This document shows, in pieces, positions 464-27,394 of a DNA stretch of 64,000 bases. Source of the stretch: Limnomonas spitsbergensis. Lineage: Eukaryota > Chlorophyta > Chlorophyceae > Chlamydomonadales. Each line of letters starts with the position of its first letter. Within the stretch, counting starts at the first letter, position 1. The stretch covers positions 434,001 through 498,000 of the forward strand of contig JAYJMM010000040.1 in NCBI GenBank assembly GCA_037349105.1, in the 5' to 3' direction. The notes under the pieces are model-generated. The model saw nothing but the letters and a program-made list of their open reading frames with translations. It had not been told where the DNA came from and did not search any database. The translations under genes and the position numbers were made by a program.

Positions 464-960
464 CTGATCGGCGTGCCGGAGGTTACAGCAGGCAAGGCCT
501 GTGAGGGCTGCAATATGGGTGGAGTTTTCAGCATCACCCAGGGCGGGAGAGACCGTGTCAGGTCCAGCCTGGCGCCCGTGTGGTCTGCTGTGGAGGGGAT
601 GGGGGGACGTGAGGGTACATCAGCATTCTGGTGGCAAGCACCCTGGCGGTGGACAATGGTTATGTCCAGCTCCTGTAGGGTGACTGCCCACCGGGCATGC
701 TGGCCCACCAGCTCCTGGTTCGCCATCAGATAGGTCAGGGGTTTATGGCCGGTGATGAGGTTGAATTTGCAGCCAAAAAGCATGTGGCAGTAGGTACGGG
801 CACCATAGACAGCGGCTAGCATTTCTCCCTGGAAGGATGAGTAATTCTTTTCACTCTTGTTCAAGGACCGGGAGGTGCAAGCTACCATGTATTCCCTACC
901 ACTATCGTCACACTGCCCTAGGACGGCCCCGATGCCTTTAATTGAAAAATCCGTATACAC
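418..960 (-). pseudogene. Copy A: Ty3/Gypsy RNase H domain, active site altered
   Basis: This is an RNase H domain of a Gypsy polyprotein, which degrades the RNA strand of RNA/DNA hybrids during reverse transcription. YTDFS supplies the first catalytic Asp, QGEML the Glu and a NAD near the end the last Asp. The third acidic position reads ITGHKPL where element B has ITDHEPL, so a catalytic Asp is replaced by Gly. The C-terminal end (from about position 530 leftwards) shifts frame relative to element B, where the methyltransferase leader should begin. The upstream connection to the RT is interrupted by an insertion at 991-3276. It is a dead copy. Confidence 0.85.
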
Positions 961-1739
961 AAAAAAGGGGCGGGGTGGCCCCCGCCCATCGGGTTTTGGT
1001 ACCGCGCAGGGACCAAGGGGGTGGGGGGGAAAAAGAGGCAGGGACCAAGGAAAGGGGGGGGAAAAGGAAAAGAAGGGGGGAAAAAGAAAGGGGTTTTACG
1101 CTGAGATATCCTCTAATTGCTCTGCCTTGCACTTACGACGCGCTTAAAGGTTTTCCCCCCTTTTGTGTGAACTTTTCCCCCCATCAGAGCTGTGATAGCT
1201 CCACATGTCAATTTTAACACATTTTAAAGGTGAAACATATTTTGGTGTGCATAAAAAAAATCTGTAAGATGTTTAGAGTCTGTTGGAGCACAGTGGGTAT
1301 TACTACCGTTCCACCTTGGCATGCCACTCACATCACACAAGTCAATGACGTTAAACCTTCGAGAGTTGCTAAAAAAAAGCAGCCGCATGGGCGCCCCAAT
1401 GTCCCGTTGGTAGGAAAAAAGAAATTCAATGCAAGAGGAGGAAAAAAAGAGAGGAGCATGAGGGACCCCCCCTCCCCAACAAAAGAAGGAAAGTCAGTTA
1501 TAAGCATGCCACACAAGTGTGAAACGTGCTCATGAACAACTGTATCATCATCATCATCAGCCATACATTGAACCCTGTGCCATTCAAGCTGTCTTAACAC
1601 ACAAACCTAAAAACTGGAGTTCTGCTGAAGTCGCTCAACGTGCTACTAAGCCCTCTCCATCTCCTTCTTCATCTCAACAGATGCCTCGATCGTATCAAAA
1701 CTGTTGCGCTCACACCTGCATGCAATGCATGTCAACATG

Positions 1740-1935
1740 TATTTCAGTGATTCAGCTACAATTCAGCTACAATCCAGGGCTCAATTCAGGTACAATTCAG
1801 CTACAACCCAGGGCTCAATTCAGCTACAACCCAGGGCTCAATTCAGGTAGAATTCAGCTCAGTTGCAAATTAGCAATCCATGGCTCAACTACAATATCCA
1901 GGGCTCATCTACAATTCAGCTCAGCTGCAATTTAC
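1740..1935. repeat. Minisatellite of ATTCAGCTACAA / CCAGGGCTCA units
   Basis: Tandem imperfect copies of a roughly 30-bp unit built from ATTCAGCTACAA and CCAGGGCTCA blocks, degenerating toward the right end. It lies inside the inserted 2.3-kb segment. No coding function is proposed. Confidence 0.75.
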
Positions 1936-1942
1936 CTACAAT

Positions 1943-2487
1943 CTAACTGGGAGCATCGTATGAGACTGTCATAGCAGCTTGCATTGCATACACGTTTTGT
2001 AACACAAGCTCCACATAACAGCCAAAGTATACCTCGAAGCCATGATCCAGCTTAATGATGTGGTGACAGAAGGTGCCCTGGATGATCCGATGCGTCTTGA
2101 GGAGCTGCTCCACTGCCTCCAGGTACATCTCAGACAGGAACTGTGATGCATTGTGCTAGCAGAGGTCATGTCAGGGTAGGCGAATTTCTCTTGCCCAAAG
2201 CTCTGCCCTGGCCGACTGAGCTTCTCATACAGATCATGCTCCTGACGTGCATGTTCAGCATGCATAAGGCTGTTGAATGCATTGGCCAGCTGGGTGAAGG
2301 TCACCCCCTGAGGGATGAGCGTCATCATCAAGGCTTGCAGGTCAGAGGGTATGCCTGACTGTGGCGAGCGTTCCACTGGGATCAGGTGGCGAACAGCAGC
2401 GGGCATCTGATCCAGCAAATTGATGTCTTGCACGTAGATGATGGCAATGGGCAGAATGTCAAAGTAAAAATATTCCGTTCTGAGGTT
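1943..2487 (-). pseudogene. Unknown protein-like frames carried by the insertion
   Basis: Two adjoining minus-strand open frames read as protein-like sequence. The first (from about 2487 to 2150) contains LLDQMPAAVRHLIPVERS and FTQLANAFNSLMHAEHARQ. A frame change near 2140-2160 then leads to a second stretch, 2128-1943, with EMYLEAVEQLLKTHRIIQG. No ATG start is evident and an AG precedes the first stretch, so these could be exons of a captured host gene. I do not recognise the family. Capture of gene pieces by a Mutator-like element would fit, but that is inference. The frame change may equally mark an intron edge or decay. Confidence 0.35.
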
Positions 2488-2639
2488 TGGATTTAGCTAG
2501 GTCAGGCCATGCCTTGATTATAACAGGCCTAGTTGTTTGTGGGCATGATTACACATGCTTAGCGCACAATGGCACTCTCATGCAGCATGAGCAAAGTGGA
2601 AACAAGGATGCCATGCATGCCATGACGCCCATGCAACCA

Positions 2640-2762
2640 GCCCAGTCTCCATCAGTCAGCCCATCATGCTCCATCAGTCAGCCCATCATGCTCCATCAGT
2701 CAGCCCATGCTCCATCAGCCAGCCCATGCTGCATCAGTCAGCCCATGCTCCACCAGTCAGGA
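2640..2762. repeat. Minisatellite of CATCAGTCAGCCCATGCTC units
   Basis: About six imperfect copies of a 15-20 bp unit with core CATCAGTCAGCCCATGCTC, next to a hypothetical minus-strand frame inside the insertion. Confidence 0.8.
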
Positions 2763-2772
2763 AAACTAAGAA

Positions 2773-3126
2773 TCATTCAGTCACTGGCCTGACGACCAGC
2801 TGCCTCCCCTCTAGGTCGCAGTCGAGGTGAGTCACGGCCCTATCCTTCATCATCATGGCAGGGATCCACGAATACGTGACGTCTAGGGCCCTCAGGCTCG
2901 GCGCCTTCCCGTTAGGTGGACAAATCGAAGCGCCAATCGCGTTGCCCACATGGCCGAGCAGGTTGCTCCAGGCCGACGCGCTGTCCAGTTTGATCCCGTC
3001 TCCACCCGCTGCATCATAGCTTTTATTACTATCGCCTTTTAGACGCAGGTCGGACAATGTTTGGCCTGTGACAGTGAATAGAATCCTCGGGTCATTGCCG
3101 AGTAGGGGGTATTGCAGCGTCGTCAT
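2773..3126 (-). CDS. Hypothetical protein, 117 aa, inside the insertion
   Basis: An ATG-initiated frame of 117 codons ending in TGA. The translation is balanced in composition (for example LLGNDPRILFTVTGQ and SAWSNLLGHVGNAIG), with no low-complexity bias, so it could be coding. No signal peptide, membrane segment or known motif is visible. It lies near the right terminus of the 2.3-kb insertion and is oriented toward the minisatellite. It could be a captured gene fragment or an element-encoded protein. No function is proposed. Confidence 0.3.
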   Translation of the reverse strand: MTTLQYPLLGNDPRILFTVTGQTLSDLRLKGDSNKSYDAAGGDGIKLDSASAWSNLLGHVGNAIGASICPPNGKAPSLRALDVTYSWIPAMMMKDRAVTHLDCDLEGRQLVVRPVTE

Positions 3127-3276
3127 GAATAAAACATTTTTAATATTCGAATGAGCTGAATTGTTGAAATTGTGGTGTCTAATTCACTTGGGCGTTGTGG
3201 AGTAGGCCGTGTACGGTTGGGGGGGAATTTTTCCCCCTTGGTCCCTGCCCCGTACCGCACCTCGATAGGGTTTTGG

Positions 3277-4372
3277 CGGGCCTGTTCCGCTGTAGTCTGG
3301 CCGCCTCGGGACCATGCCACCCTCGCACATATCTGTTTTTAGGTCTTGGAAAGCGCGGTTTTGGGCGGGACCCCATTCAAAGGGGACTCCGTTGTGTCCC
3401 AAGTACTCTACCGTTGCGCATCCGAACAGGGATTTATCTGGGTGTGCTCTGAGGCCCACCCAGTATACCATATCCAGCATGGCCTGGACGTGGCCAATGT
3501 GCTCTTCAGGGGTGTCGGCGCTAAAAACCAGCAGGTCGTCAATAAAAGCTACACAAAATCTGCTGAGGCGGGTCGCTGCTATTTCTCCTTCCATCATTCT
3601 TTGAAAGTAAGGGGGGCCGTTTCGAGCCCAAAATTAAGTTTCTTGTACATCCACAGCTCGGGTCCCATCCAGAATGCCGTTTTAGGCTGGTCTTCCTCTT
3701 TGATCGGGATCTGCATGAACCCAGACCTGAGGTCGACCTTACTAAAGACCCTGGCAGATCCTAGGTTTTGGAAAATTGTTTCCATCCTTGGGATTGCAAA
3801 CTCTTGTTTAGCTGTGCGTTCATTTAGGCGGCGCATGTCATGCGCTATGCGGTGTTGGTCCATTCCCCCGTGTCGGCGCATTTCTTTGCCGCAACTACTG
3901 AGTTGGATGCATATTTAATGCGACCGCCCTGGGGTACTTAAACAATAATACCCGCGTCTATCATTGGTTGGTATTTGTCTCTAAAAATGGCGTCCTTGGG
4001 GGGCACCATGATCCTGGCCCTCTGGAAACACGGCAGATTTTCCAGAGCTAGTGCGAACTCACTCGCTTGGCCGTGATAGCCGGGGAGGTCCATCATGTCG
4101 TACGCGAAAGAGCTTTTGCGGTCCCTGATGCTCTGCTCGAATCGCTGCTGCTGCTCCAGCGTGAAGTCCGGGTGCATGCCCAGCAGCCAGCCATCGGCTG
4201 TCTTTGTATAGGCGCAAGGCGGCTCGATCGTGCCGCCCGGCTGGAAGACGTCGATGACTGCTGACGCAGGCTGCTTGGCGCCCCCTGCCTTGCAGCGGGG
4301 CGGGACGCCGTTGCTGGGTGCGAACGGAGCTGGCATAGGAGGCGGCCACTGCCGTTGCGGCGCTATGGACAC
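3277..4372 (-). pseudogene. Copy A: Ty3/Gypsy reverse transcriptase, frameshifted and internally deleted
   Basis: This is the reverse transcriptase of copy A. From right to left it shows a linker with VFQPGG and HPDFTLEQQQRFEQ, the fingers region (RIAHDMRRLNERTAKQEFAIPR), the VDLRSGFMQIPI block, and the active-site motif FIDDLLVFS near 3540, followed by EEHIGHVQ and VEYLGHN. All of it parallels element B. At least two frame changes break it, near 3910 and 3620. Relative to element B, about 57 residues are missing straight after YLGHN, where the frame jumps to GVPFEWG. This removes most of the connection between RT and RNase H. It is clearly non-functional. Confidence 0.85.
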
Positions 4373-5433: not shown

Positions 5434-5646
5434 TTCTACAACGCGTCGCGCTTATTCAGTGAAGGTGCTGCACAGGCGCAGTTGACCTCGTATGGGCTCA
5501 CGCTAGTTCCATGCGAAGTTCAGAGTTCTCGCATCATATCACAGGGAATAAATATAAGGGCGGGAGTTCGGGATCTCAGCGATCTGGAACGGTACTCTTT
5601 CGACCTGATAAGGAATGGTTTCCATCCCCAGCCACACCAGAAGGCA
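5434..5646 (+). pseudogene. Left half of an open frame split by element B
   Basis: A plus-strand open frame reads toward element B (blocks ASRLFSEGAAQ, TSYGLTLVPCEV and DLSDLERYSFDLIRNGF). It ends at the element boundary at 5646. If the 15.3-kb element and one copy of its target duplication are removed, the frame stays in register with the plus-strand frame that resumes at 20972. No family is recognised. The start is unclear: a pyrimidine-rich stretch at 5420-5440 could be a splice acceptor. It may be a host gene or an older element. Confidence 0.45.
5643..5646. repeat. Target-site duplication (left) of element B
   Basis: GGCA at 5643-5646 abuts the TG terminus of element B and recurs at 20968-20971 directly after its CA terminus. 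Extending one base gives AGGCA on both sides if the terminal A is counted in the duplication. Confidence 0.65.
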
Positions 5647-5892
5647 TGTCGCACCATAAAGCAGTAAACGTGCTAATATGGTAAACTCCGTAATCTCCGG
5701 TAAAGGCACCTTAGAGAGGAGTCCTTCTACTCATAACTACGGTACATTACCGTACACACAGGCTCCTTGTACTTCAGACAGGAGCTGTTAACTGGCTACT
5801 GTAAGGTTCAGCCCTAGCAGGAAGTCTCTCTGCCTAGGGGTAAGGTCTGGGTGTCCCTGTCTCGTGGGTACCGCCCCTACTACTTCACTCGC
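5647..5892 (-). repeat. Terminal block B2 of element B
   Basis: The outermost block at the 3' end of element B (minus sense), 246 bp, starting TGTCGCACC on the plus strand. It differs from block B1 (6524-6767) by one substitution and one 2-bp indel. Joined to A2 it gives an 875-bp unit with TG and CA ends, which would be a complete LTR. Confidence 0.8.
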
Positions 5893-6521
5893 GATGTGCG
5901 CTTCAGGTCCGTGGCGGACTTCTCCCTCACGACAGTGATGGGCGCCTACGAGCAGACTTCGTGACTACTCACTGGCTGCGGGTGCTCAACGAGTTAAGCT
6001 TCTCAATTTGTCTTTGGATGTCAGGAAATAGCTAGGATTGGCGCAGGCCTTCTGGCCGTCTGGTCGCGATCCAGCTAGGCTATGTCAAGGGCACTTACCG
6101 CGTCACACGCGGTGAGGGGACGAGAGCGCAGACTGCGTACTTCTGTTCTGCAGGGGCCTCGATCCTCAACTGAGGTTTTTTTATCTCCTGCTATCTCAGC
6201 AGAGGCTGATCTAGTCTTGACTTGTTGCAGGTACTGACGTTTGGAACACCTCGGGTCTCACGCACTGGGTGACGGCCGGAGCTTGTTACAGAAGAGGTCT
6301 GTCCTTTTGAAAGGGACGAAGTAGCTAGTTTGGCCATTGCCGAGAAATAAATTGAATCGGCAAACCCCAATTCAGAGTACGGGAAAGCTTAACCCCTAGC
6401 GTAAGCGGGTTTCTAGGTTCCGGTTCAAATAAGGAGGATCCGGAGGGAAGCTGCGAAGTCTCCGTGGTCGCTAACTGCGACCTAAACGGTTCTGGCACGT
6501 ATACTGTAATATACCGTGACA
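5890..6521 (-). repeat. Terminal block A2 of element B
   Basis: A 632-bp copy of block A, matching A1 at 20336-20967 with about 15 substitutions and no length change. It begins (minus sense) TGTCACGG and joins directly to B2. It is the A part of the putative 3' LTR. Confidence 0.85.
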
Positions 6522-6523
6522 GC

Positions 6524-6767
6524 TGTCGCACCATAAAGCAGTAAACGTGCTAATATGGTAAACTCCGTAATCTCCGGTAAAGGCACCTTAGAGAGGAGTC
6601 CTTCTACTCATAACCACGGTACATTACCGTACACACAGGCTCCTTGTACTTCAGACAGGAGCTGTTCTGGCTACTGTAAGGTTCAGCCCTAGCAGGAAGT
6701 CTCTCTGCCTAGGGGTAAGGTCTGGGTGTCCCTGTCTCGTGGGTACCGCCCCTACTACTTCACTCGC
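6524..6767 (-). repeat. Internal block B1 of element B
   Basis: A second copy of block B (244 bp), separated from A2 by the dinucleotide GC at 6522-6523. In minus sense it follows a purine-rich stretch (GAGGAGCGGGGGGG, rc of 6768-6781), the position expected for a polypurine tract. The B1-GC-A2 arrangement resembles an LTR-LTR junction. Confidence 0.8.
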
Positions 6768-7495
6768 CCCCCCGCTCCTCAGCGTTAAGCCTATCGGGCA
6801 TGCGCTGGGAGCCGGAAAAAGGGGTCGGTACTGTTAGGAAGAAACTTCTGGCAATATGTACACCTCAGAAGATCAAAGTATCAAAGCAAATCTGCCTGGT
6901 TCAGGCCTCCTCCGCCTCTGCCTGATTCAGGCTATATACACATATCTGCCTGGTTCAGGCTGTCTTCAAAGCAAAAATCACATAATCTCCGCAGGCAATG
7001 CGCACATACTGCGAGTCATTCTCAGCATCTCAGCTGCTCAGCACCAAATGTGGCTGTTAATCAGAATCATTAGGCCAGGCTAGGTATAACCGCTGCTCTC
7101 GCCCCACTGCGCCATAGACGCCTGGTCTTCAAGGCCACATGAAATGTGCGCCGCAGCAGCGGCATTCTGCCCCCTTGAGTACTATCACTACTCCACAAAA
7201 TCAAGTCTTGTCGCCCATTGCTCCAGCATATGTACTACCGCAGCCTTGCTGCTGCGGCTCTTTGAGAAACAAATTTTCATAACCCGTAGCTGCCTTAGGT
7301 CTTGTCGCCACCTAGCATAATCCGCCATTGGCCCGCTGGCCGCCGGCCCAGCACCTGCCGTGTACTAGGACCAGATGCGCTGCGCCTGAAAGTGTCTTCT
7401 GCTGCTCAGTTTCCTGCCCTTTCCTGCCGGTTACGGCGTGGGTATCGTCATATGCTCAGCGGCCTTGCCGCTCTGGGCTTGGCCTTCCCTGAGGT
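6768..7495. other. Element B 3' non-coding region
   Basis: This lies between the end of the PHD-containing frame and block B1. It contains three near-palindromic TGCCTGGTTCAGGC-type motifs between 6890 and 6962 and no convincing open frame. It probably holds the 3' untranslated region and transcript-end signals of the element. Confidence 0.5.
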
Positions 7496-8917
7496 TCAGG
7501 TATCGGTGCACCCTTCTAGTGCCGATTCCTCCTCCTCCCTTGCTGCTTCCTTGGCCACCTTGGCCCTTCTGGCAACTGCCCTCGGGGTGACATTGGCCTC
7601 TCCCCGGCCAGTGGTGTACGAGATGTCGTACAACCCGTTCGCCATTGGCCTTGCGATGCCCCGCTCCATTTGCCGTGTGGCCGGGTTGGTGGCCATAACC
7701 TCCACCTCAGGCTTATCCATGATGTCGGCATCCGGGGCCGCCCTGGCTGCCGCCCTGGCGGCTGGGCTCGGCCGCCCCTGGATGGCTGCGCTGCGCTCTG
7801 GCTCTACAGCGGGCCATGCTATCTCAGCGGGCCCAGCTTCCTTGTCGTCCGGCTGGCACCGCGGGCACAACCATTCGCCCTCAGGCACCTCATCAAGTGC
7901 TGGTACCAAGCAATCCATGTGCCAACCTGTGTTGCAGACATCGCACAACAGCATCACATCTCCGCGATCTGGCAGTTGGCACACCTCACAAGACAAGCTG
8001 TTATTGGGCCTCGCCCCACTGAAATCTACCACACCCCGGAGGTTGGGCAAGTTGCACGGGGAGCAGTTGACAGCGTTCTCTGTCTCTGTCAAGCCGTCTG
8101 CTCCCTCCAACACCAGTGTGCCTGTTTCCCCCAGCTTTTTAACTCTGGGGATCTCTGGCCTAGCCTTAGGATCCAGGCTACGGCGCTCCGATGAATATCT
8201 GACATACACGTAATCGCCCTCTGCGAAACGTCTGACCTGGGGGACGTATCCTCCCCCCCTGATCCTTGCATATCGCAGCTTATCGCGGTGCTGTGCGATC
8301 TTTAGGTGCTCACCCGCTAATGGCAGCGCCTCTTTGATCCTAGCCACTCTGGCCAGGAGCAGGTCCGCTGCCTCCTCTGCTGTTGCCACCTTGGCGGTGC
8401 TTCATAGGTCCGCCCCCACTCTGGAGGGGAACGTGGGTCTCTGCCCAAAAAGAACCTCGTAGGGCGCCATGCGCGTGGCCTGCTGCGGCGAGCAGCGAAA
8501 GCCCAGGGCCACCCATGGTACCATCTTGTCCCAGGATTCGTCGCTGCTGCCCTCCTGGCAGCATTTGCGAAGTCCTGTCTTGAGGGTCTGGACTGCCCTC
8601 TCGGACAGCCCGTCTGCCTGGGGGTGATTGGCAGAAGTGGTGCGGTGGTCAATAAAACAATCCAGCAACATGTCCTGGAATTCTCCCTGGAATTCTGTCC
8701 CCTGGTCCGTCACCACCTCTGCGTAGCCCCCGAATCTTGCTACCACATTCTGGAAGAAAGCCAAGGCCGTCACATCTGACGCCTTGCTTGGAATGGGGAT
8801 TAACTCCACCCACTTGGAGTAATGCTCCACACCACACACACCATCACAAATCGATTGCCCCTGGGCGTGGTGGTGAATGGTCCACACAGATCCACTCCCC
8901 ACCGGAAAAATAACCAC
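7496..8917 (-). CDS. Element B: DDE integrase core, C-terminal domain and PHD finger
   Basis: This is the C-terminal part of the polyprotein. The integrase core has VTDQGTEF (second catalytic Asp, near 8705) and NHPQADGLSER (catalytic Glu, near 8600). The first Asp is at the end of the preceding frame, which shifts near 8825 in a GT-rich tract. A TGA at 8402-8404 interrupts the frame without changing it, and the downstream residues continue the integrase C-terminal domain (AQHRDKLRYARIRGG, then a GDYVYVRY barrel-like stretch). Next, C134-C137, C149-C152, H157-C160 and C175-C178 of the last frame (7990-7856) form a C4HC3 PHD finger, a histone-tail reader fold. The frame ends at a TGA at 7496. 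A PHD replaces the chromodomain expected in chromoviruses. A role in integration targeting is inference. Confidence 0.88.
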
Positions 8918-10914
8918 TCAATGGGTAGAGGGTGCAGGTCGGGCTGTATGTGATTGAATGTGGACGCCCTGGCCCGATCACACACACCGCACTCCTGCAC
9001 CACCTTCCTGACTGCTGCTCTGAGCCTTCTCCACCAGTGTTGCTGCATGACCATGAAAGCCGTGCGGTGGCTGCCAAAATGGCCTGTACCAGCATGGGCC
9101 TCCTGGATCACTGCCAGCCTGTCCTCTGGCCTGGGTACTACACATCGTCTTCCATCAGGCATCAGCCGTATCAAAACTCCTCCCCTCTCTGATTCCCACA
9201 GGAAAGGGGCGGCCCTGCGCTGTACCCTTGCCTGCTCTCCTAGCTCCGTTCCTGGAGCGTGTATTTTCTCACGTAGGTATCTCAAAACTGGTTCATCTGA
9301 CCACACATCCACCTTGGCTGGGGTCCCTGCCCCAAAACCGGGTGTATCACATTCTCCCTCTTTGTCACCACTCTCAACACTGCCAGCATCTGCCTTGGCC
9401 ACAAGCGCGTTCCCACCTGGTTCATGCGCTGCATCGGCCCAATCTGCCGCAGCGGATTCTCCCAGGCACTGCCTGTACGTCGCTGCCACCTCCCCACTGC
9501 CAGAGCATGCGTTTCCTGCAGTAGCAAGGGCGTAGTGGCTGGACATTAAGGTTGCACCAAGCACATGATCCCTGTCCTGGCCTGGCAACCGTGCTCTGCG
9601 CACCAGTTCATTTGGTAATATTTTGGCACACTCAAGTGCCACAGTGAACCACGCACTCAATGCCCACGATTCCATGCACCTGCCCAAGGCTGCCCTCCTG
9701 GCAGCCTCTGGGAAGTCTGGTCGCGGCATCGTGGATCCTACAGCGTAACCCATGGCACGTTCCCGTTCATTTGCATTGGGCTCCTGCAGATCACCCATGG
9801 GCCTGTACACCATCCCATTCTGCCCATTCCTGAAAGAATATGATGCGGGAGTCGCCATCAAGCAGGGCAGCACCCTCCTGGGCTGTCTTGTCACATTGAT
9901 GCGATACCCCCCATTGTCCGGGCAAGCGACCACCTGGGCCCTGCTGCCCTTGTCCAGAATATCATCTACGACCCCCTCATGGGGCCTGGTCGAAGCACAA
10001 ATCACAAACTCGATATCTGCCGACGGGGCTATGTTCCCCCAGTAGTTGCGCGTGCGGTGGGCGTAAGACCCCACCTGTGCCGCATCAAACAGTGCAGGCG
10101 TCCCCAGAACCCTACACACTTCATTGAACCCGTCTACACTGGCCTTTGTGCTCCTCTGATTCAGCTGTATCGCAACATTCTCAATCAGGTATGCGGGCGG
10201 CCTGGACATCTGCAGGACCTGCAAAGTGCCCAACAGCTTGACCAGCGGGAAGAAAGACTTGCTTCTTTCACCCGCCAGCCCACGCCCCTTGCCTGCTGAT
10301 GAGAGATCTTGACACTCCCATCCAGCCACCATAACCCATTGGCGCCCATCCTGGGCGCCTGCTCCCCGGAGGTGCTCTGCCGTAATGGCGTACACATCCT
10401 GGGGCAGCGCTCTGAACACATCCTCAAACGCTTTGACTGGGAGCAACTGGGGAAATCGCTTGTGCAACTGCACCAAACGACCCCCAGCAATCTCCCTCAC
10501 TTCTTCGCTGATATCCGCATACAAATATCGCACCACTGGAATTCCTGCCTTGAGCACCATTTCCAACCCAGAGCACATACCTCCAAAGGGTTCGAAGAGA
10601 ACCACTCCCTCTGTCTCCATGGTCCGCACAGCTTGTACCGGCAGGCACGCTGTGTCCACCCCTGCATGTGCGAGAGGCGGTGCAACCCGGGGAAGGTCAG
10701 ACAGTACCTCGCTGATGATTCCCCTGGCCCGTTCCCGACCACTGAACGCCTGTTCTGCCGTACTGACAGGCTGTGCCTGCTCATCATCCTCAGTGGCGGC
10801 GGAGGATATCTCCTGCCCAACCACTCCTGTCGCGCAAGCTGCCTCTGCAGCCCGCAACAGTTCACTCCCCTTCTTCCTTCCTGTGCCATACGGACCAACT
10901 GGTCGGCATGCCAC
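8800..10914 (-). CDS. Element B: DNMT3-like C5-cytosine methyltransferase fused to integrase HHCC domain
   Basis: A single 704-codon frame. Residues 105-430 (about 10602-9625) match a C5-cytosine DNA methyltransferase, which transfers a methyl group from S-adenosylmethionine to DNA cytosine. Motif I is FEPFGGMCSG (107-116), the catalytic loop GWECQDLSSAGKG has Cys201, motif VI is ENV (245-247), motif VIII is AHRTRNYWGN (285-294, very like the AHRARYFWGN of DNMT3 enzymes), and the closing motif is GRCMESW (411-417). The residue before the catalytic Cys is Glu instead of the usual Pro. Residues 607, 612, 642 and 645 form the HHCC zinc site of a Gypsy integrase, and D675 is its first catalytic Asp. 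The frame is reached from RNase H through two homopolymer frameshifts (C runs at 10967-10972 and 10867-10870), and it leaves by one near 8825. Confidence 0.9.
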   Translation of the reverse strand: MACRPVGPYGTGRKKGSELLRAAEAACATGVVGQEISSAATEDDEQAQPVSTAEQAFSGRERARGIISEVLSDLPRVAPPLAHAGVDTACLPVQAVRTMETEGVVLFEPFGGMCSGLEMVLKAGIPVVRYLYADISEEVREIAGGRLVQLHKRFPQLLPVKAFEDVFRALPQDVYAITAEHLRGAGAQDGRQWVMVAGWECQDLSSAGKGRGLAGERSKSFFPLVKLLGTLQVLQMSRPPAYLIENVAIQLNQRSTKASVDGFNEVCRVLGTPALFDAAQVGSYAHRTRNYWGNIAPSADIEFVICASTRPHEGVVDDILDKGSRAQVVACPDNGGYRINVTRQPRRVLPCLMATPASYSFRNGQNGMVYRPMGDLQEPNANERERAMGYAVGSTMPRPDFPEAARRAALGRCMESWALSAWFTVALECAKILPNELVRRARLPGQDRDHVLGATLMSSHYALATAGNACSGSGEVAATYRQCLGESAAADWADAAHEPGGNALVAKADAGSVESGDKEGECDTPGFGAGTPAKVDVWSDEPVLRYLREKIHAPGTELGEQARVQRRAAPFLWESERGGVLIRLMPDGRRCVVPRPEDRLAVIQEAHAGTGHFGSHRTAFMVMQQHWWRRLRAAVRKVVQECGVCDRARASTFNHIQPDLHPLPIEWLFFRWGVDLCGPFTTTPRGNRFVMVCVVWSITPSGWS

Positions 10915-10949
10915 TGGTTCACCCTGCTCATCCCTGTGAGCATGGCTAC

Positions 10950-11666
10950 CTACCTCCCGCTCTCCTCCCCCCTGACCACCGGCTCTGATGCAACTGCATC
11001 CAGCCTAGCCCCTGTGCGGTCAGCGGAGGACGGAAGAGGCGACCTGGACGGAATGTCCGCATTCTGGTGGCATGCTCCAGAGCGGTGGACAATGGTTATG
11101 TCCAGTTCCTGGAGCATGAGTGCCCACCTAGCATGCTGGCCCACTAGCGTCTGGTTGTCCATGAGGTAGGTCAGTGGCTCATGGTCAGTGATGAGGTGCA
11201 CCTTGCACCCAAACAGCATGTGACGGTACGTGCGCGCGGCAAACACTGCAGCCAGCATCTCCCCCTGAAATGAGGAATAGTTCTTCTCACTCTTGTTCAG
11301 GGATCTGGACGTGCATGCAACCATATATTCCCGCCCACTGTCATCGCACTGCCCTAGCACTGCTCCAATGCCCTGCTTAGAGAAGTCAGTGTACAACAAG
11401 AAGGGCCTTGGCGGTCCTTTGCCATCTGGCCCCGTTCCACTGTAATCCGGCCTGCGCAGGACCCTACCGCCCTCGCACATCTCCGTTTTGATCAACTGGA
11501 ACGCCTGCGACTGCTTTGGCCCCCACACAAACGGGACCCCCTTGACCAGCAATGCATTGATGCACGCTGCCTTCTTGGAGAAATCCGGAATGTAGCGGCA
11601 GTAGAAGTTCAGGAAGCCCATGACTTCCTGAGTGTTCTTCACCGTTGCGGGCTCAGGCAGCGCCAT
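10950..11666 (-). CDS. Element B: RT connection and RNase H domain
   Basis: This begins within the RT thumb/connection (GFLNFYCRYIPDFSKKA, FVWGPKQSQAFQLIK) and continues into RNase H. All four acidic residues are present: YTDFSKQG, QGEMLAAVFAA, LITDHEPL and NADIPSR. These residues bind the two metal ions that cut RNA in RNA/DNA hybrids. The frame is separated from the RT frame by a one-base shift near 11665, and from the methyltransferase frame by a run of six C at 10967-10972 (restoring one base there joins them). Similarity to copy A at 418-960 is close throughout. Confidence 0.9.
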   Translation of the reverse strand: MALPEPATVKNTQEVMGFLNFYCRYIPDFSKKAACINALLVKGVPFVWGPKQSQAFQLIKTEMCEGGRVLRRPDYSGTGPDGKGPPRPFLLYTDFSKQGIGAVLGQCDDSGREYMVACTSRSLNKSEKNYSSFQGEMLAAVFAARTYRHMLFGCKVHLITDHEPLTYLMDNQTLVGQHARWALMLQELDITIVHRSGACHQNADIPSRSPLPSSADRTGARLDAVASEPVVRGEESGR

Positions 11667-11701
11667 AACCGCTGCAATTTAGCTGCATGTGGCGTGAGAC
11701 C

Positions 11702-12360
11702 CTAGGCTGACACGTTGTGACCCAGGTATTCCACCGTCGCACTCCCAAACAGCGACTTGTCAGGGTGTGCCCGCAACCCGACATTGTGGAGCATGTCCAG
11801 CATGAGCTCCACATGCTTGATGTGCTCTGCTGGTGTATCACTGTACACCAGCAGATCATCAATGAAAGCCTCACAAAAGGAACTCAGGCCCGCTCTGGCT
11901 ATCTCCTCTTCCATCACCCTCTGGAAGAAAGGAGGCCCATTGCGCAGCCCAAAATTGAGCTTGGTGTACATCCACAGCTCAGGTCCCATCCAGAATGCCG
12001 TCTTAGGCTGGTCCTCAGCTTTGATCGGTATCTGCATGAACCCCGATCTGAGGTCCACCTTACTGAATATCTTGGCCGTACCCAGGTTCTGAATAATTGT
12101 CTCCATCCTGGGGATGGCAAACTCCTGCTTAGCCGTACGCAGGTTCAACCTGCGCATATCGTGCGCTATGCGGTGATCTGTCCACTCGCCTGTCTCAGCA
12201 CTCTTTTTGGCCGCAACCACAGAGTTGGCTGCGAACTTGATAGGTCCCCCCTGGGGCACCTTCACAATGATACCAGCCTGTATTATCGGCTGGCACTTCT
12301 CTTTAAAAAATGGCAGCCTTTGGAGGCGGCATGTCCCGCGCCTTCTGAAAGCACGAGCTG
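11702..12360 (-). CDS. Element B: Ty3/Gypsy reverse transcriptase core
   Basis: This is the RNA-dependent DNA polymerase domain. From right to left it shows QPIIQAGIIVKVPQGG, DHRIAHDMRRLN, the catalytic block FSKVDLRSGFMQIPI (first Asp), FWMGPELWMY, NFGLRNGPP, and the active-site box FIDDLLVYS with its Asp pair, then DKSLFG and YLGHNVSA. A TAG at 11702-11704 follows YLGHNVSA and the same frame continues GLTPHAAKLQ, as expected for the Gypsy thumb, so the stop interrupts a real domain. The frame is entered through a run of six A (plus strand 12305-12310), where one base fewer gives a continuous reading from the upstream linker. FIDD is an accepted variant of YIDD. Confidence 0.9.
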
Positions 12361-14294
12361 ACCTCGTCTTCCAAAGCCAATGTAAACTCACCCTGCGTGT
12401 CGCAGTAGCCTGGCAGGTCCTCCATTGAGTAAGCGAACGCTCCCTGGCGGTCCCTGAGGCTCTGCTCATGGGACGCCTGCTGCTCTTCCGTGAAGTCAGG
12501 GTGCTTGCCCAGCAGCCATCCTTCCTCAGTCTTGACATATTCCGAAAGTGGTTCCACCACTCCTCCTGGCTGGAACATGTCAATCATCTCTGCCGCCTGC
12601 GGATCTTCCTCCGCGGCTGGTGCTTCCCCTCCAGCGCTGCTGTTGCACTGCCAGTCCTCCTGCTGGCTGTAAGCGCCCCCCGCCCTGCTGGCACCCCCCA
12701 TAGGGATGACAGCCGGCGGACGCAGCCATCCTGACGTAAGCTTTGCCGCAGCCTCCTGGCTGGACACAAAAGCACCTTGGCCTGCTGTAAATCCCCCGCC
12801 TCGGACTCCCTGCCCAGTGGCCCGCGTACCCGGGATGCACACTGACAGCAGGAGCCACACCAGCATCAGCTGGAACGCTCCCGTAAGCACTCCCTTGAAT
12901 GCTGTACAATTCAGGAGTCCCCTGCATGCTGGCGGCTGTCGCACAACTTGCGGCTGTTGCTCTGCCGGTTGCGCAACTATAGGCTCTGCAGCCGGCCCTG
13001 GCCGTAGCTGCTCCGTGGCCCATGTGATCTCTAGGTTAACCTGGCTGATCTTGACCGGCTGGCAAGGGCAATCCATGCCTGGTCTGCCGCCGCGATCCCT
13101 GTCTGCGGCCTTCCGCTGCGCTTTCCTTGCGCGGCGCCTAGCCTTTTTTGACTTCTTTCCCTGAAGCTCGGCTGTTTCCGCCCAGGTTGCATCGGCCCCC
13201 ACTGGCCACGCTCCTGACGGCTGTCCCCTGCAGCGCTTGGCCTGCTGCCCCTGCCTGCTGGTGGGGCGCGGCATTTCTCCGCTGCCGTCTGCACCTGCAG
13301 ACCCTGCTGGTTCCTTGCACTTCTTCCTGCTGCCCCCAGCGTTGGCAAGCTGCATAGCTTGGTAGTCCACTCCGCTGGATTGAGCTGGGTTGCGCCACTG
13401 CGCTGGCCACCCACGGATAGGCCTGCCCTGGCCTGGCTGGACCCCGTCTGCATATGCCAGTGCCAACACGCTCCCAAAGGATCTGCGTCCGCTGGACCGC
13501 ACCCATATATCCCTGCAAATGCCCGCCGTCTGCGATCCTGTATCATTCTCTGATGAGCAGAGGGCGCCTGCCCTTGACCTCAGCCACAGCCGCCTCACGC
13601 TCCCAACGCGCTTGCCTGGCTTGCTGCAGTTCACCTGGCAAGTCCAACCCCTGGACGGCCCGTAACACCACAGCCCTTTCGCTGGGGAGCTCCTCTTCCC
13701 AGGCGCAATACCACCTGCAGCCTTCTGCCTTGTCTGCGGCCAACTGCCGCTTTCTGATGGTTCCCAAGGGCGTATCCCCCTCTGGACAGTCCTTGGCCCG
13801 ATGGCCACTCTGGGCGTAGATGAGGCACCTGCCTGCCATCCCCTCTGGGACTGAAAAGGCGTGATAGTCGTGCCCATGCTTGCCGCATCGCAGGCATGGC
13901 TCCCCGGTAGCTGACCCATGGCCCCAGGCTGGTTGCACCAAGTCACTGCATATATGGCATGCCCACACTCCTCTGCGGGTGCCGCCGATGCCCTTAGTGC
14001 TGGCACACGCCTCACAGGCTGTACCGCTACACTTGCAGCACTTCCTGCTGGTCCCTTCCTCTAAGCTGCCCATGCAACCCAGACACTGCTGGGGCATGTC
14101 TGCGTCATTCCCGAGCAGTGGCTCCCCGCTGACTGCGCTGCAGCTCCCTTGGCTGCGCCCCCAGCCCGGCTCTCTGGCCTGGGCGGGTGCTGCACTGGCG
14201 CCTGGCTGCTGGCGGGTCCCTCCCGGCCATTGCCGCCTGCCGCCGCCTGCGCACCCCTGTCGCCCTGCTCATCGCCTGAGCTAGCGCTGTCCAT
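12303..14294 (-). CDS. Element B: N-terminal part of pol with zinc-binding modules, basic linker and hydrophobic segment
   Basis: Probable start of the second large frame: an ATG near 14294 or 14097 follows the stop of the preceding frame at 14312. The first part (14097-13800) is Cys-rich: CLGC, CCKC, CEAC, CHIC and CLRC pairs, then a knuckle-like CLIYAQSGHRAKDC in which the second Cys of a CCHC is Tyr. A long Gln/Arg/Ala-rich, very basic stretch follows (KKSKKARRRARKAQRK near 13140), then a hydrophobic segment (FQLMLVWLLLSVCIPG, near 12860), then an acidic linker (PAAEEDPQAAEMIDMFQPGG) leading to the RT. Frame changes occur at least once within the Cys-rich part. No DTG/DSG protease motif was found. 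Function of the module is unknown. Confidence 0.55.
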
Positions 14295-14311
14295 TCCTGC
14301 ACCCTGAGTGC

Positions 14312-17300
14312 TCAGCTTCCAGGTGATATTGCCTGGTAGCCACATATTGCCTGGTGCTCCAGGACGTGCATGGCAACCCTCAATCCCTCCAGCTGCCTGT
14401 CCGACTGCGCTTTGGCATCGTCCAGGCCTTCCCCTTCTGAGGAGTCTTCTTCACTCCACACTGCAAATTCTCCAGCGCTGTCGGCACCGTCGCTGTTGCA
14501 AGTCAGCCGATGCGCGGCGACTTCCGCTGAAACCCCATCTATGAGGGCTATCCTTCTGACGTCCAGCTCCTCCTCCAGGTCTTTCAGCGCCTGGTTGTCC
14601 TGCCACATCTTGGGATCTGGATTTGGCTCTGGCAGCATTCTGATCTTGAACAGCAGGCCGGATTCTGCCATGGTTGCGCTGCTGGCGACCAGCTCCTGAC
14701 CCGCCTCATGCAGGCCCATCTCCTCCTTCCTCTGCTTATCAAGCTGCCCCACAAATCTCTTCAAGGTAGACTTCCAACGCTGAGTGCTGTACATGGCAGG
14801 GTCCCCCCAGGGGTCCCTCGCCACTGGCTGCACCGACTCACTCATTTGTCCGTCCCCTGAGCTGTCGCTGTTTGTCCCGCCTTCCGCTGCGTCCCAGGAA
14901 GCTGCCATGAGCGGGTCTGCAGCCTGCCGCGGGCTCACCCCCACTGCAGGCAGGCGCCCCCCCAGCTCAAACTCCCTGTCGAGGTTGCGCCTTGTTTCCT
15001 CAATGGCGTCCCTCTCCCAATCTCCGTTGCTCATCCATTTTTGCCTCAGCTGCTCCATCGCCTCCTCGAGGCTCTGCCCCGGACTCTGTGGTCCTAGGCA
15101 TGCGGAGGCTGGCTCCCCCGGCCTGTCTACACTCCTGGCCACTGGCCAGCCGGCGCTGATGACGCCCATAGGCAGCTGGGGGCTGTTTGCTCCATACTCC
15201 CCATCTGACTCCGAGTCAGCCACCAGCGGTGGCAACCCCTCCAAGGGGTCTTCGCTCTCCCCGCCTGGTAGGCCCGTGTCCCACTGGCTTGGATCCTCCC
15301 CCTCGCGGAACCCCTGGTTCCTGCGGTCAGGGTGTCCTGCTACCAGTCTGCGTTCGCTGTTTGCCCTCAGAACACTGGTCCCGCCGCAGCTACTTGAGAG
15401 TGTCCGGGGCTCTGCCCGGTCCCTGGGTTCCACTGCCAGCTCTGACATTTCCAGCTCCTGGTCCATTGATTCTAGCCACTCCCACTCTGATGCCTTTGCA
15501 CCCAGTGTAGTGACGAAAGCTGCCTGGAATGGCGCAAACGGCCCTGGCTGCTCTGACGACTCTTGGGACCCATCATCACTTTCATGATTGGGGTCCCACC
15601 TGCGGGCACCCCACCTGCCGATCCTCCAGTGACCCAGCGCTGGCTGGTCCCTCAGCTCCACCAGCTCTGCCTCGTAGGTTCCTGATCCTACTCCCTGGAA
15701 CAAGGGATGCAGCGTGCGCACCCCTGCTGGGTGTGCCTGCTTCCACAGCTGCACTGTCACTGAATTGGCCTGCCAGTGTGGCGCCACGCTGCTGGCCCTG
15801 TCCTCCTGCCAGGCTCTCCTCTCCCTGCGCACCCACTGGTGTACACAGTCCTCCAACCGTTCTAGCGCGAACGGCGAGCGAGCCAGCTCAAACTCCCCCT
15901 CCCACATGGATCCACTGTCGGACGCTGGTCTCGCCCCGTATGGCCATGTGGGGCAATCCATCTCCGCAGGTGCCCACTGCGCTACAACACCCCACACATG
16001 CTGCATGGCTGCCGACATCTGTCCAGGCAGCATGGTCCTTTGCATCACCATCATCATGATGGTCCACACTGCGGGGTCTGCACCCATGGCGTACTCGTGT
16101 GCATGGGACTCTGCCTCATCCACATTGGCACACTTGACACAATGGCTACATTCTCCTCGCTCCTTTCGAAGAAGAATACCGGCAGGTCATTCCTGGAAGC
16201 GTGCATGTGGATCCACGCCTCTGACTCCGGGATCTCTCCCTCCTGCACCTCATCATAGTAGTATGACACTACCCGCTGCACCGGGATGGCTGCCCTGGCA
16301 TCCCCAGGCGCCAATCCCCACGGTACAGCCTGGCCTGCTACCACTCTGGGTATGAGGATGGCTGCCACAATGATCTCCTCAAACCGCCTAGGCTTGCCCC
16401 CATGGCAGAGCCCAGCGCCGTCATAGGTTCCCTCGGCTGTCCCAGTAGACTCCCTCCGTACGTCCCTGCGGCAACTGCCTGCACGGGCACGTAGAAGGCG
16501 CAATTTCTCAGGCTGGAATGCTCCAGCAAGCTGTGGACGCAGTGCTGCTCCCATGGCGCGTTCATAAATCCTAGCTGCGCCCCTTGCCACACTCCATCTG
16601 TGCGCACGCTGTCAGGCACCTCCCATCGTGCCATGTCCGCAGCATTCACCGCTGTTACTCCCTCCTCGCCCACCATGTGCTCGACCCTGTCAACGCAGTG
16701 AGACCAGATGGGAAGCCCCCACTCTTGCTGCATGAAATTGGCCATCACCGTGCTGGGCTTTATGTACCCTTTGAGCGCCGCGACCAGCAGCACCGTTGTT
16801 ACTGCGTCCCAGGGGAAAACCAGCCTGGCCACTGCCTGCATGGCAGCCTGCCGATTGACGCAAACCACCTCTCGGCCAGGCAGCAGCCTGTGGTTTTGGA
16901 TCCTGCAAAGCCCATCCTGGTAATCCTCAGGTACTGTAAGCATTGCCTCTGTGGCTGTTGACTCTGGCAACTCATCGCCCAGGCGGTACCACTGTACCAA
17001 GCCCCTGCTCTCTGGCGGGCCTGGCTGTACAGGCCTGTGGCGGATATGCTCTCTACTGCTGGATCCGTCACGGTGGCCCTCACCGTCCTGGTCATACTCC
17101 ATATCCTCGTCCCTTCCGGCGGACCACCTGTCGCTGATTCCACTGCCGGGCGGCCTACTGGTCATCTCAACCCACCCCTCAGGATTGTACCTGGAGGTTG
17201 TGCAGTGGTGGCCTCTAAGGGGCCCTGTCGTGTTGTCCCCTGAACTCAGCGCTGCGGCTCCCTGAGCCCTTCGGCGGCGACCTGTCCTGCTGACTGATCC

Positions 17301-17378
17301 CAGAGCCCTGGCAGCTGCTCCTGTTGCCACGTTTCCGATGTGCAGAGATACCTCCGGGGTACCTGGGTATGACAACAC
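14312..17378 (-). CDS. Element B: long unassigned coding region between gag and pol
   Basis: Three overlapping minus-strand frames read as one protein with frame changes near 16395 (a run of five C) and near 16100. Regions with clear protein character include VVCVNRQAAMQAVARLVF, ALKGYIKPSTVMANFMQQE, EIIVAAILIPRVVAG, ESEAWIHMHASRNDLPVFFFE and WQDNQALKDLEEELDVRR. Large parts are acidic and Ser/Gly-rich. The last frame runs 603 codons to a TGA at 14312. I do not recognise any domain. By position it may be a capsid or nucleocapsid extension, or an additional element protein. It is much longer than anything usual between gag and pol in Gypsy elements. Confidence 0.5.
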
Positions 17379-19636
17379 AGACCTTGGTCAGGCATCGGGG
17401 TATCCTCCCTGGAATCCGACCCTCTATCGGAGTCGGCGGAGCCATCCTCACTGGGACTGGCCTCCCCCTCCTCATCACCATGCTGGTGCATAGCAGCCCG
17501 CGCCACCCTGTCTACTTCCTCCATCCTGTCGTAGTGATCGGCCAACTCCTTGATCAGAAACTTCTGTAACAAGTTAGGCCAATCCTCACACGGAGCTGGG
17601 CAACCCCTGCGCTTGAGATCCCTCAGGATCTCGCATGCATGATGGACGGACCTGGCTGAACCTGCAGGCATAGTGCCGTAGTGATTCATAGCCAGTGACT
17701 CCATCACAACCTTCCAGTGGTGCTTCTGAAGGGGCACCTGCCCTTTTTGCACCCACTGGGTCCCTCCCGGCACGTCTGCCTCCTGTTGTTCTCAACCTGG
17801 GCTGTGCCGGTGGCCTGGTCAAAAACCCCATGGACTGACACCAGGCACGTGTGCCTCATGTGACCTTCCCACCTGGGAGCATCTTGCATCGTTACTGCGC
17901 CCTGCCGTCCTGGCGGGCCTGGCAGCTCGCGCCGGCCTGCTGCGGCCCTCCGCGCTTTCCACTCCTGAAAGGAAGCGCTTTGCTCGGCCTCGTAGGCCCT
18001 CCTCAGCTGGTCATCTGTGCCTTCCAGGCCTTGGCTGGGCCCCTCAGCCTCTGGGCCCCTCTCTGGGCCGGCTGGAGCCCTAGGTCTGTCCAGGCGACCG
18101 CTGTTGCCTGCTTGCACTGGCCTCCTGTACTCAGGGCAGTCGCTGGCGTAGTGCCCCGGCTGATGGCAGTTGAAGCACACTTCCCCATCTCGGGGTCCCA
18201 GGACAATTGGCCTAGCTGCCCGTCCCTGCCCAGCCAGGGCCCTGCCCGGCGGACTCCGGTGAGCTGCCCTCCTCCTATCCTGTTCTTGGTCGTCCTTCCT
18301 GAACGACCTGGCTAGGCTCCCTGAGCCTCGCTCTAGGGAGCGGCCTCGGGGCTGGCTGCCCCTCTGCCCTGGTCCTGGGCTCTCCTTCCTCGTATGGATA
18401 CGCCTGTCGCTGCCCCCCTCACTTGGGGACCTGCGCCACCTGCCCCTGGCCTGTACATCGGCCGGGCTGCTATCTCCGGTGTTGTGCTCCGTCAGCTGGC
18501 TCTTGACCCCTGGCATGGGCACCACCCCCTGGTGCTCCCTCACCTGCCCTCTCTGGGCGCTCCTGCTGCGCTCCCTGGGAGCCTTGTCCGCGGCCTCAAC
18601 CGCCGCCGTTGTCCCCTTCCGCTCCCTGCGGGTATCGGGACTAGCCATCTTAGCTCTGTCGGCGCCCACCGGGTTTTGTAGACCAGGGTCCTTCTGATCT
18701 GCCTCCGCCGGTACCACCGTGCTGAGGGGCTCGCCTTCCCCCTCTGGGTCGCTATCCCACGGGGACGCGGGTAGAAACATCTCCTGGATGCTGGCTGCCA
18801 GCTCCGGGTCCACTGGCACCTGGTTTTGCGGCCTCCCCACCTGCAGGTCTCCAATGGCCTGATACAGGCCTGGCAGCTGGTCTGCCTGCAAAATATACTC
18901 CTTCTGCACTTCTGTCATGACGCTATCCACGGACTTGATGTCACCCCACCTTGCCATCTGCAGGCGTAGGTACTTGCGGCTCTGCACTGGCCTGCCAGAC
19001 CTGCCTGGTCACCGCTAACTGGGCACCTGCCCCCTCGCGCTTGACCACTGCAGGCACTCGCCTGCTCCCCATTTCCTCTCCACCTGGCTGAAATCTGTCA
19101 TGGCCTGCTAGCCCCTCTGGGGCTGCAGCGATCTCTGCACTGTGTTCCGGCTGGCAGGAGTCCACCAACACCCGCTGCGCAACCCTTGCCACCCTGGGCG
19201 GATTCTGTTGCGCAGCGGTGTCTGGACCATTGTCACGCCGTATGCCGCTGCTCTGAGACACCTCAGCCACCTGATCCAAGATCAGGTCTGGGGTTCCCGC
19301 CTGCGTCGGACCCTGCTCAAATTCCAGGCTACTCCTGGAATCAGCGGGCAGTGGGCCTCCTCGCCCAATGCCTGTCCTCGTCACGCACACAGCACCATCG
19401 GCCAGCATTCCTGCCTCTTTGGGCTGGAAGCGGTCAGGTCCCGATACCTTGCAGGCCCCTGCGGCCAGATCCACTGGCCCTGCCAGTTTCTCCGCCATCC
19501 GGAGGGCTTCCTCTGCAATCAGTGAATCAGCCACCTCTATCAGGTCTGCACCTGGCTCCAGCCCCCGTACGCGCCCACTTCGGCGTCGGGCGTCGGGGTG
19601 CTGGTGCCTATCAGGATGCAGGTTACACTCTGCCAT
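17246..19636 (-). CDS. Element B: gag-like region with CCHC zinc knuckle
   Basis: The first ATG is at 19636. Three frames follow with changes near 18960 (a CCCC run) and 17745 (a GGG run). The N-terminal part is Ala/Gly/Pro-rich. The middle part contains VDSVMTEVQKEYILQADQLPGLYQ and a long Arg/Ser/Gly-rich stretch. A canonical nucleocapsid knuckle CFNCHQPGHYASDC lies near 18137-18178 and would bind the RNA genome. The last part holds MNHYGTMPAGSARSVHHACEIL and LLQKFLIKELADHYDRM. Order and motif indicate Gag. Exact limits of capsid and nucleocapsid are not visible. Confidence 0.65.
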
Positions 19637-20335
19637 TCTTATAGACAATTATACGATCCACACGATCCTGCAATGTGCTGGCAACACAAGACCAGGATCT
19701 TGCTAACGCTCAGGCTTCTGCCTCTTGCACCTACTGCAGCCTGGTGAGGGTCTGCCAGTCAGGTCAAGACGACAGGTACAGAAAAAAACAGGATAGGCCC
19801 TGCCTTCCTGCTTTTCTTGCTAATTAATCGGAATCTGGCGGAATCCTCCGTCGCCTTCAGCACTTCCCACCTTTCTGGCTGGGCAGCTTCTAGATGTCAC
19901 ACGCCCTGCGTGGATGTAGCCTCTTGCGTGGTGTCCGCTCAGCTCTGCGGTCCTGCGGGGATGCTTTGGCCCACCAAAAAATGTCAACCTTGGATCTTCT
20001 ATCCACAAGTTCACTTCTGTCAGTGATGACAGATTGGATCCACCTGATCACAATCTTCAATCACACAGGTACAAATTGCTGGGTGTATAAATCCACAGCC
20101 AATTCTTCAAGCCTCTCCTGGACCCAGCATTGTGTTGCCACACACAATGATTCACAGGGTTTAACTTGGCAATCTCTCTCTGGAGATTACCTCAGCCAAA
20201 TTGCAGTTCAAGCACCAAATTCCAGGCTGTTTGCTGACAAGCAAAATTCAAAATTTTGAAGCACAAACACCTTCTGCAGGAACTGGCAAATCAGGCTGAT
20301 CAGGCTCAATCTACTTCGTCCCTTTCAAAAGGACA
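19637..20335. other. Element B 5' leader
   Basis: This lies between the A1 block and the first gag ATG, about 700 bp, with no convincing open frame. A primer-binding site should lie near its right edge, but no obvious TGG-starting tRNA complement directly follows A1. The 25 nt next to A1 (20311-20335) are an exact inverse copy of 20746-20770 within A1. Confidence 0.45.
20311..20335. repeat. 25-nt inverted copy of an LTR segment at the A1 junction
   Basis: CTACTTCGTCCC to CAAAAGGACA at 20311-20335 is the exact reverse complement of 20746-20770, within block A1. It lies immediately against the left edge of A1. Confidence 0.85.
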
Positions 20336-20967
20336 CGCGATGTGCGCTTCAGGTCCGTGGCGGACTTCTCCCTCACGACAATGATGGGCGCCTATGGGCA
20401 GACTTCGTGACTACTCACTGGCTGCGGGTGCTCAACGAGTTAAGCTTCTCAATTTGTCTTTGGATGTCAGAAAATAGCTAGGATTGGCGCAGGCCTTCTG
20501 GCCGTCTGGTCGCGATCCAGCTAGGCTATGTCAAGGGCACTTACCGCGTCACACGCGGTGAGGGGACGAGAGCGCAGACTGCGTACTTCTGTTCTGCAGG
20601 GGCCTCGATCCTCAACTGAGGTCTTCTTATCTCCTGCTATCTCAGCGGAGACTGATCTAGTCTTGACTTGTTGCAGGTACTGACGTTTGGAACACCTCGG
20701 GTCTCACGCACTGGGTGACGGCCGGAGCTTGTTACAGAAGAGGTCTGTCCTTTTGAAAGGGACGAAGTAGCTAGTTTGGCCATTGCCGAGAAAGATATTG
20801 AATCGGCAAACCCCAATTCAGAGTACGGGAAAGCTAAACCCCTAGCGTAAGCGGGTTTCTAGGTTCCGGTTCAAATAAGGAGGATCTAGGGGGAAGCTGC
20901 GAAGTCTCCGTGGTCGCTAACTGCGACCTAAACGGTTCTGGCACGTATACTGTAATATACCGTAACA
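20336..20967 (-). repeat. Terminal block A1 of element B
   Basis: A 632-bp block at the 5' end of element B (minus sense starts TGTTACGG). It aligns end to end with A2 (5890-6521), with about 15 substitutions. It is followed directly by interior sequence without block B, so on its own it is a truncated LTR or one arm of a split repeat. Confidence 0.85.
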
Positions 20968-26903: not shown

Positions 26904-26929
26904 ATTTCCCTCGACCCCTATCCTGTATA

Positions 26930-27310: not shown

Positions 27311-27394
27311 GTCTTTCATACAATTTTCGCTCTCCTCCCCACTTCACATACTTGATCCAACCAACAGCCAAACTGGCTGTTCTCGCAACCTAAT

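Follow-up and report, generated by a model that had tools for sequence, protein, structure and literature searches.

The element and its copies

We analysed a 64,000-nucleotide stretch of Limnomonas spitsbergensis contig JAYJMM010000040.1 (the window, whose positions are used for all coordinates below). It holds a copy of a Ty3/Gypsy retroelement with a DNMT3-type methyltransferase domain in its Pol region. Repeat and end comparison places this copy at 5647..20967 on the reverse strand, on which all of its features lie, with the layout A1-internal-B1-A2-B2, where A and B are repeats. Read from A1, the internal part encodes a CCHC zinc knuckle in a gag-like part (18130..18180; Pfam zf-CCHC, 5.7e-6), a reverse transcriptase (11711..12175; RVT_1, 5e-24), an RNase H (11106..11525; RT_RNaseH, 4.4e-31; open reading frame (ORF) 10950-11666), the methyltransferase domain (9580..10632, 351 amino acids as modelled, delimited by alignment, model and fold search), an integrase H2C2 zinc domain (8965..9126; Integrase_H2C2, 5.8e-12), an integrase catalytic core (8621..8830; rve, 2.7e-8; ORF 8402-8917) and a PHD finger (7856..7990; PHD, 2.2e-11; ORF 7496-8389).

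A sequence-only reading of this DNA had reported the motifs FEPFGG, ECQDLS, ENV, AHRTRNYWGN and GRCMESW together with an integrase zinc site in one 704-residue frame, and had placed the enzyme between RNase H and integrase. All of these motifs are present as quoted in the frame (8800..10914; ORF list and Pfam), and Pfam puts RNase H upstream and the integrase core downstream. The frame spans only the methyltransferase and the integrase zinc domain. The window copy is broken, because the reverse transcriptase and RNase H upstream and the integrase core and PHD finger downstream sit on the same strand in other frames (the ends differ modulo 3). In another copy (L018) a single frame runs from reverse transcriptase and RNase H through the methyltransferase and both integrase domains to the PHD finger; the adjoining piece upstream has an open frame of 3,022 codons and includes CCHC knuckles. 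Both copies show the Ty3/Gypsy domain order of reverse transcriptase, RNase H, integrase zinc domain and DDE core, and the best Protein Data Bank (PDB) match of the element profile is the Ty3 polyprotein (1.2e-89).

A scan of the L. spitsbergensis genome (260 Mb, 124 contigs) gave 958 candidate methyltransferase domains. The 123 copies that were scored are 89-100% identical, six of them with an in-frame stop, which answers the concern that the domain might be missing from other copies of the element. Within the set at about 90% identity the copies are heterogeneous, L062 and L016 being about 93% identical to the rest. About 20 of the scored copies lie in open frames of more than 5,000 codons, and two of these that were inspected are not intact Pols. 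Copy C124:4629746 (L014, G000:C124:4624246-4634145) has the methyltransferase in an open frame of 5,124 codons that gave no reverse transcriptase or RNase H match, in line with which codons 601-1050 of L018 have no partner in L014; in copy C27:1625336 the frame ends about 480 bases past the methyltransferase. Open-frame length is no proof of element completeness. Seven DNA_methylase matches in the genome lie in frames of exactly 2,253 codons, and the strongest matches outside the element families described here are at C30:293433, C93:390191 and C14:272908.

The same genome contains further families, which differ strongly from one another (only 40-60% identical). The methyltransferase of the second, which extends across the left window edge, is 57-59% identical in its two long pieces; in the third, 40% identical and seen at one locus, a single frame encodes RNase H, methyltransferase and both the zinc domain and the core of the integrase. 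The diverged second Gypsy element in the window (1-4255, reverse strand, running on into L066) has the same order of RNase H, methyltransferase and integrase; its frames are broken, and a different sequence lies between its RNase H and reverse transcriptase.

Two database searches with the methyltransferase domain as query returned 17 and 52 proteins, among which Haematococcus lacustris, Cymbomonas tetramitiformis and Closterium are named and no named Klebsormidium sequence was found. The complete series from reverse transcriptase through RNase H, methyltransferase, integrase zinc domain and rve core to PHD finger is present in 39 of these 69 relatives. The methyltransferase lies between RNase H and integrase zinc domain in all 45 relatives that show both neighbours, a figure that says nothing on the share of related elements without the enzyme, since every relative was found through it. 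One relative, P0017, has the methyltransferase before the reverse transcriptase, the sole such case of the 69.

Fold, catalytic residues and selection

By predicted fold and catalytic residues, the domain is confirmed as a DNMT3-type C5-cytosine methyltransferase. Profile searches matched C5-methyltransferase families: the 704-residue frame scores just above the cut-off of 22 for Pfam DNA_methylase (PF00145; E 5.7e-5, 23.1 bits), and a sequence search of the PDB finds DNMT3A (E 2.3e-5), which a family profile lifts to 1.3e-20. An AlphaFold model of the domain, built from its alignment with 30 relatives (31 rows), has a predicted local distance difference test score of 93.9 and a predicted template modelling score of 0.91. 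All 50 PDB matches listed in a fold search with this model (the best 50 of 166 at E <= 0.001) are DNMT3 structures, the best among them at E 9.8e-18 with about 21% identity, and model and search point to no other Rossmann family. Plant DRM enzymes were rejected as an identity: from FEPFGG to GRCMESW the motifs keep the usual order, not the rearranged one of DRM, which is mentioned in PMC5890265. A scan of IMG/VR with the methyltransferase query gave at least 333 relatives, of which the 80 listed match parts of the domain at 24-47% identity; a viral source of the domain is thus conceivable.

Three features are invariant in the 31 aligned sequences: the catalytic Cys, the Glu and Asn of ENV, and the Arg of motif VIII. 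The sequence-only reading had pointed out that Glu takes the place of the usual Pro before the catalytic Cys and had asked whether such an enzyme methylates DNA normally. The Glu is indeed present, but it does not set the enzyme apart, because 59 of 71 domain sequences (68 database proteins and three from the same genome) share it; Pro occurs in ten and Ser in one, one is unread, and the third family of the genome has Met. The Glu was therefore rejected as an argument that the enzyme is dead. The substitution, by Glu or Met, would nevertheless fit a catalytically idle domain that Pol retains for its structure or for binding nucleic acid, as would a yeast assay in which the enzyme of a Gypsy element from Klebsormidium showed no methylation, a result that its authors called inconclusive (PMC5890265). 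We consider such an idle domain improbable, given the invariant catalytic residues and the scatter of Pro-bearing relatives within the same domain tree (a tree of element domains only).

Selection on the domain was estimated as the ratio of nonsynonymous to synonymous rates (dN/dS, NG86) for 23 copies in two subfamilies, the pairs not being independent. For the methyltransferase, dN/dS is 0.046 between the subfamilies (126 pairs), where dS is about 1.1 and near saturation, and 0.053 (36 pairs) and 0.056 (91 pairs) within them. The corresponding values are 0.022-0.036 for the reverse transcriptase, 0.033-0.078 for RNase H and 0.015-0.056 for the integrase zinc domain. In sliding windows, dN/dS is 0.05-0.08 over the methyltransferase and 0.02 over the integrase; over the upstream part it ranges from 0.06 to 0.54 (L019 versus L015) and from 0.05 to 1.15 (L019 versus L017). 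The methyltransferase domain is thus under purifying selection, and a dN/dS of about 0.05 makes it likely that it works for the element.

These observations also bear on the idea that one copy captured the domain by chance and that it has no function. The broken window copy would be compatible with such an accident, which is refuted by the many copies, the three families, the database relatives and the selection, and to which we assign a negligible probability. A passenger or one-copy artefact is likewise ruled out by the 123 scored copies, the further families and the dN/dS of about 0.05.

Repeat structure and integration

The sequence-only reading had called the termini unusual, and this is borne out by split repeats, 4-bp target duplications and a self-complementary site, which we compared in the window copy and ten further copies (n = 11). 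The layout A1-internal-B1-A2-B2 is found in the window copy and nine of the ten others, with A of about 630 bp and B of about 225-245 bp. In the window copy, A1 (20336..20967, 632 bp) is 97.5% identical to A2 (5890..6521), and B1 (6524..6764) is 98.8% identical to B2 (5647..5889), which forms the right element end. In some copies the two A repeats are 99-100% identical. The elements begin with TGTCAC (TGTTAC in the window) and end with GCGACA, that is, TG..CA. Identical 4-bp flanks surround 8 of the 11 copies, compared with 2 of 110 in a cross-pairing control; those of the window copy are TGCC (5643-5646 and 20968-20971). In the 5' flank of L022, a copy on C28, the end motif of another copy, TGCGACA, lies five bases before A1.

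A two-base spacer separates B1 from A2 in the junction GCGACA-GC-TGTCAC (GC at 6522..6523 in the window), and a purine-rich run, a candidate polypurine tract, directly precedes B1 (6765..6780). The B-GC-A junction occurs 996 times in the genome (567 and 429; at most two mismatches) and 0 times in the control. Some junctions are about 880 bp apart, as for tandem B-A-B-A arrays (G000:C28:3837016/3837896 and C4:3625452/3626336). The 24 bases after A1 (20312..20335 in the window), a candidate primer-binding site, have their complement some 200 bases inside A (20746..20769) in all 11 copies, at 24 of 24 positions in five, including the window copy, and at 23 of 24 in six; the best of 300 shuffles per copy gives 16-18. 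One inner position differs between the subfamilies in both of the complementary stretches, with the pairing kept.

These features combine traits of two known groups. The split direct repeats A1-B1-A2-B2 are a DIRS trait, and complementarity between primer-binding site and element RNA is a trait of Tf1/sushi elements. In the Tf1/sushi group the complementary stretch lies at the extreme 5' end of the RNA. True DIRS membership is ruled out by the 4-bp duplications in 8 of 11 copies and by the integrase: the ORFs scanned (window and L018) gave no Pfam match to a tyrosine recombinase and contain rve instead.

Taken together, the 4-bp duplications, the self-complementary site and the A2/B2 joint suggest self-primed reverse transcription followed by integration of a circle by the DDE integrase. 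Reverse transcription would prime on the element's own RNA through the stretch after A1, the purine-rich run would prime the plus strand, and ordinary Gypsy reverse transcription from these primers would yield a linear complementary DNA (cDNA) with the order B-A-internal-B-A. Its ends, the end of A and the start of B, would be joined into a circle, and the A2/B2 joint would represent these joined ends. The integrase would then open the circle at CA-GC-TG inside the repeat, giving A1-internal-B1-A2-B2 and the 4-bp target duplications. If each strand were cut behind CA, overhangs of two bases would result, as with retroviral integrases. We propose a circle because the A2/B2 joint equals the predicted cDNA ends and the integrated ends lie at B/GC/A inside the repeat.

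Alternatively, the split repeats could have formed in linear cDNA through an unusual strand transfer, with no circle. Ty3-type integrases use linear cDNA, and the ends here are of the form TG..CA with 4-bp duplications, both of which favour this route. The joint of A2 and B2, however, sits where an end defined by the primer site would meet a start defined by the purine run, and the integrated ends lie at B/GC/A, inside the would-be long terminal repeat, which leaves the linear route a credible but less probable explanation. If integration from a circle is correct, Ty3-type and DIRS-type integration, usually held distinct, would be connected through a DDE integrase that works from the inner junction of a circle.

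Role of the enzyme and relation to known systems

DNA methylation usually silences transposons. That this lineage keeps a DNMT3-type domain at a dN/dS of about 0.05 across families that are 40-60% identical therefore suggests that writing 5-methylcytosine helps the element lineage. We lean, with moderate confidence, towards the reading that the enzyme methylates the new DNA copy before or at integration. As part of Pol it would stay with the cDNA and the integrase and place 5-methylcytosine on the cDNA or at the insertion site. A different substrate is conceivable, in that the enzyme might target host chromatin or the insertion target instead of the cDNA, the element gaining from altered chromatin around its insertions. 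The PHD finger in the same Pol, behind the integrase, is in keeping with this proposal, which we nonetheless regard as rather unlikely because the cDNA is the nearest substrate, since related elements make Pol in a particle together with their RNA and cDNA.

The PHD finger lies behind the integrase in the window copy, in L018 and in 39 relatives. Its nearest solved relatives by fold and sequence search include CHD4, WSTF, KDM5-type proteins, ATXR5, PHF21A and BAZ2A/B. Such PHD fingers, in part according to the titles of the structures, favour histone H3 unmethylated at K4, and the finger of the element, being akin to these readers, would tether the Pol complex to chromatin. Strands and a helix follow the PHD finger in the model, and this part has no clear fold match. 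Chromoviruses carry a chromodomain behind the integrase. No Pfam Chromo domain was found in the ORFs of the window or L018, and among the relatives a Chromo domain lies behind the PHD finger in P0060 and a Tudor domain in P0043.

Several observations qualify the proposals of cDNA methylation and of integration from a circle. For CpG, observed/expected amounts to 0.58 within the element against 0.80-0.90 for nearby stretches of the window, yet histone loci have a value of 0.64. Among young changes, C>T is found at 13 of 250 CG sites compared with 39 of 1,381 other C/G sites, and other changes rise equally (5/250 versus 12/1381), so that these figures decide neither for nor against self-methylation. 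Copy C37 has no B2 and cannot show a duplication, C4 matches at three of four duplication bases and C109 at none. The yeast result on the Klebsormidium enzyme and the sampling of relatives through the methyltransferase query, both described above, belong here as well. The 996 terminal junctions in one genome, together with copies whose A repeats are 99-100% identical, make the question of self-methylation testable.

As for other features, the genome is rich in histone genes (443 candidates, of which 150 were scored and about 100 share the top score). Its rbcL fragments have a green-lineage appearance. For H2B, the full-length matches with the highest identity reach 93, 84, 82 and 81%, followed by Chlamydomonas sp. 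UWO 241 at 79 and 78%, while several of the top E-values belong to longer animal entries that are 73-77% identical across 70-76% of the query; a chlorophyte host agrees with these results. The window also contains a head-to-tail unit of about 6.8 kb at 26904-44577 (26904-37764 versus 33720-44577, 99.4%) with shorter repeats nested in it, a 52-bp tandem array at 46533-47858 within a stretch of GC skew -0.73, and a tandem repeat with shifts of 42-84 bp at 63207-64000 that reaches the window edge.

That retroelements capture DNA methyltransferases, as the sequence-only reading had stated, is an established principle. The closest known system is KnitGypsy-Dnmt3 of the charophyte Klebsormidium nitens, described by de Mendoza et al. 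in 2018, which resembles the present element in its Gypsy domains, in having Dnmt3 in the Pol frame, in its DIRS-like repeats and in purifying selection on the enzyme; the idea of self-methylated cDNA was also put forward there (PMC5890265, cited in PMC6338049). The present host, by contrast, is a chlorophyte, and the main text on KnitGypsy-Dnmt3, as available, mentions neither a PHD finger nor target duplications, a self-complementary site or a circle (PMC5890265). The PHD-bearing layout, the 4-bp duplications, the self-complementary site and the reading of a circle junction were not found for such elements in the literature covered, which did not extend to subscription journals, preprints and Repbase. 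SymbioDIRS-Dnmt3 likewise has a Dnmt3-type enzyme in Pol and split repeats but uses a tyrosine recombinase in place of a DDE integrase (PMC5890265), and a Sola1 DNA transposon carries another methylase (PMC12477816). In the Closterium-type proteins P0016 and P0017 and in P0068 and P0069, a related methyltransferase is again part of a retroelement protein but lies after an aspartic protease or before the reverse transcriptase, not between RNase H and integrase, and the three of them included in the domain tree form a separate group there (Shimodaira-Hasegawa-like approximate likelihood ratio test, 96). Tf1/sushi Gypsy elements share the primer site complementary to their own RNA, although Tf1 self-primes with 11 bases, compared with 24 complementary bases about 200 bases inside A here (PMC7175516).

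More speculatively, and with considerable reserve, we suggest a clade of green-algal Ty3-type elements with self-primed, circularised cDNA and an integrase that opens CA-GC-TG, in which a PHD reader and a DNMT3 writer would place premethylated copies into chromatin unmethylated at H3K4. Animal DNMT3A/B have the same methyltransferase fold and motif order at about 21% identity and are paired with a reader of unmethylated H3K4, the ADD domain; unlike ADD, the PHD finger of the present element sits behind the integrase. If this proposal is correct, the pair of reader and writer would mean that a retroelement has reassembled a machinery for de novo methylation of its own.
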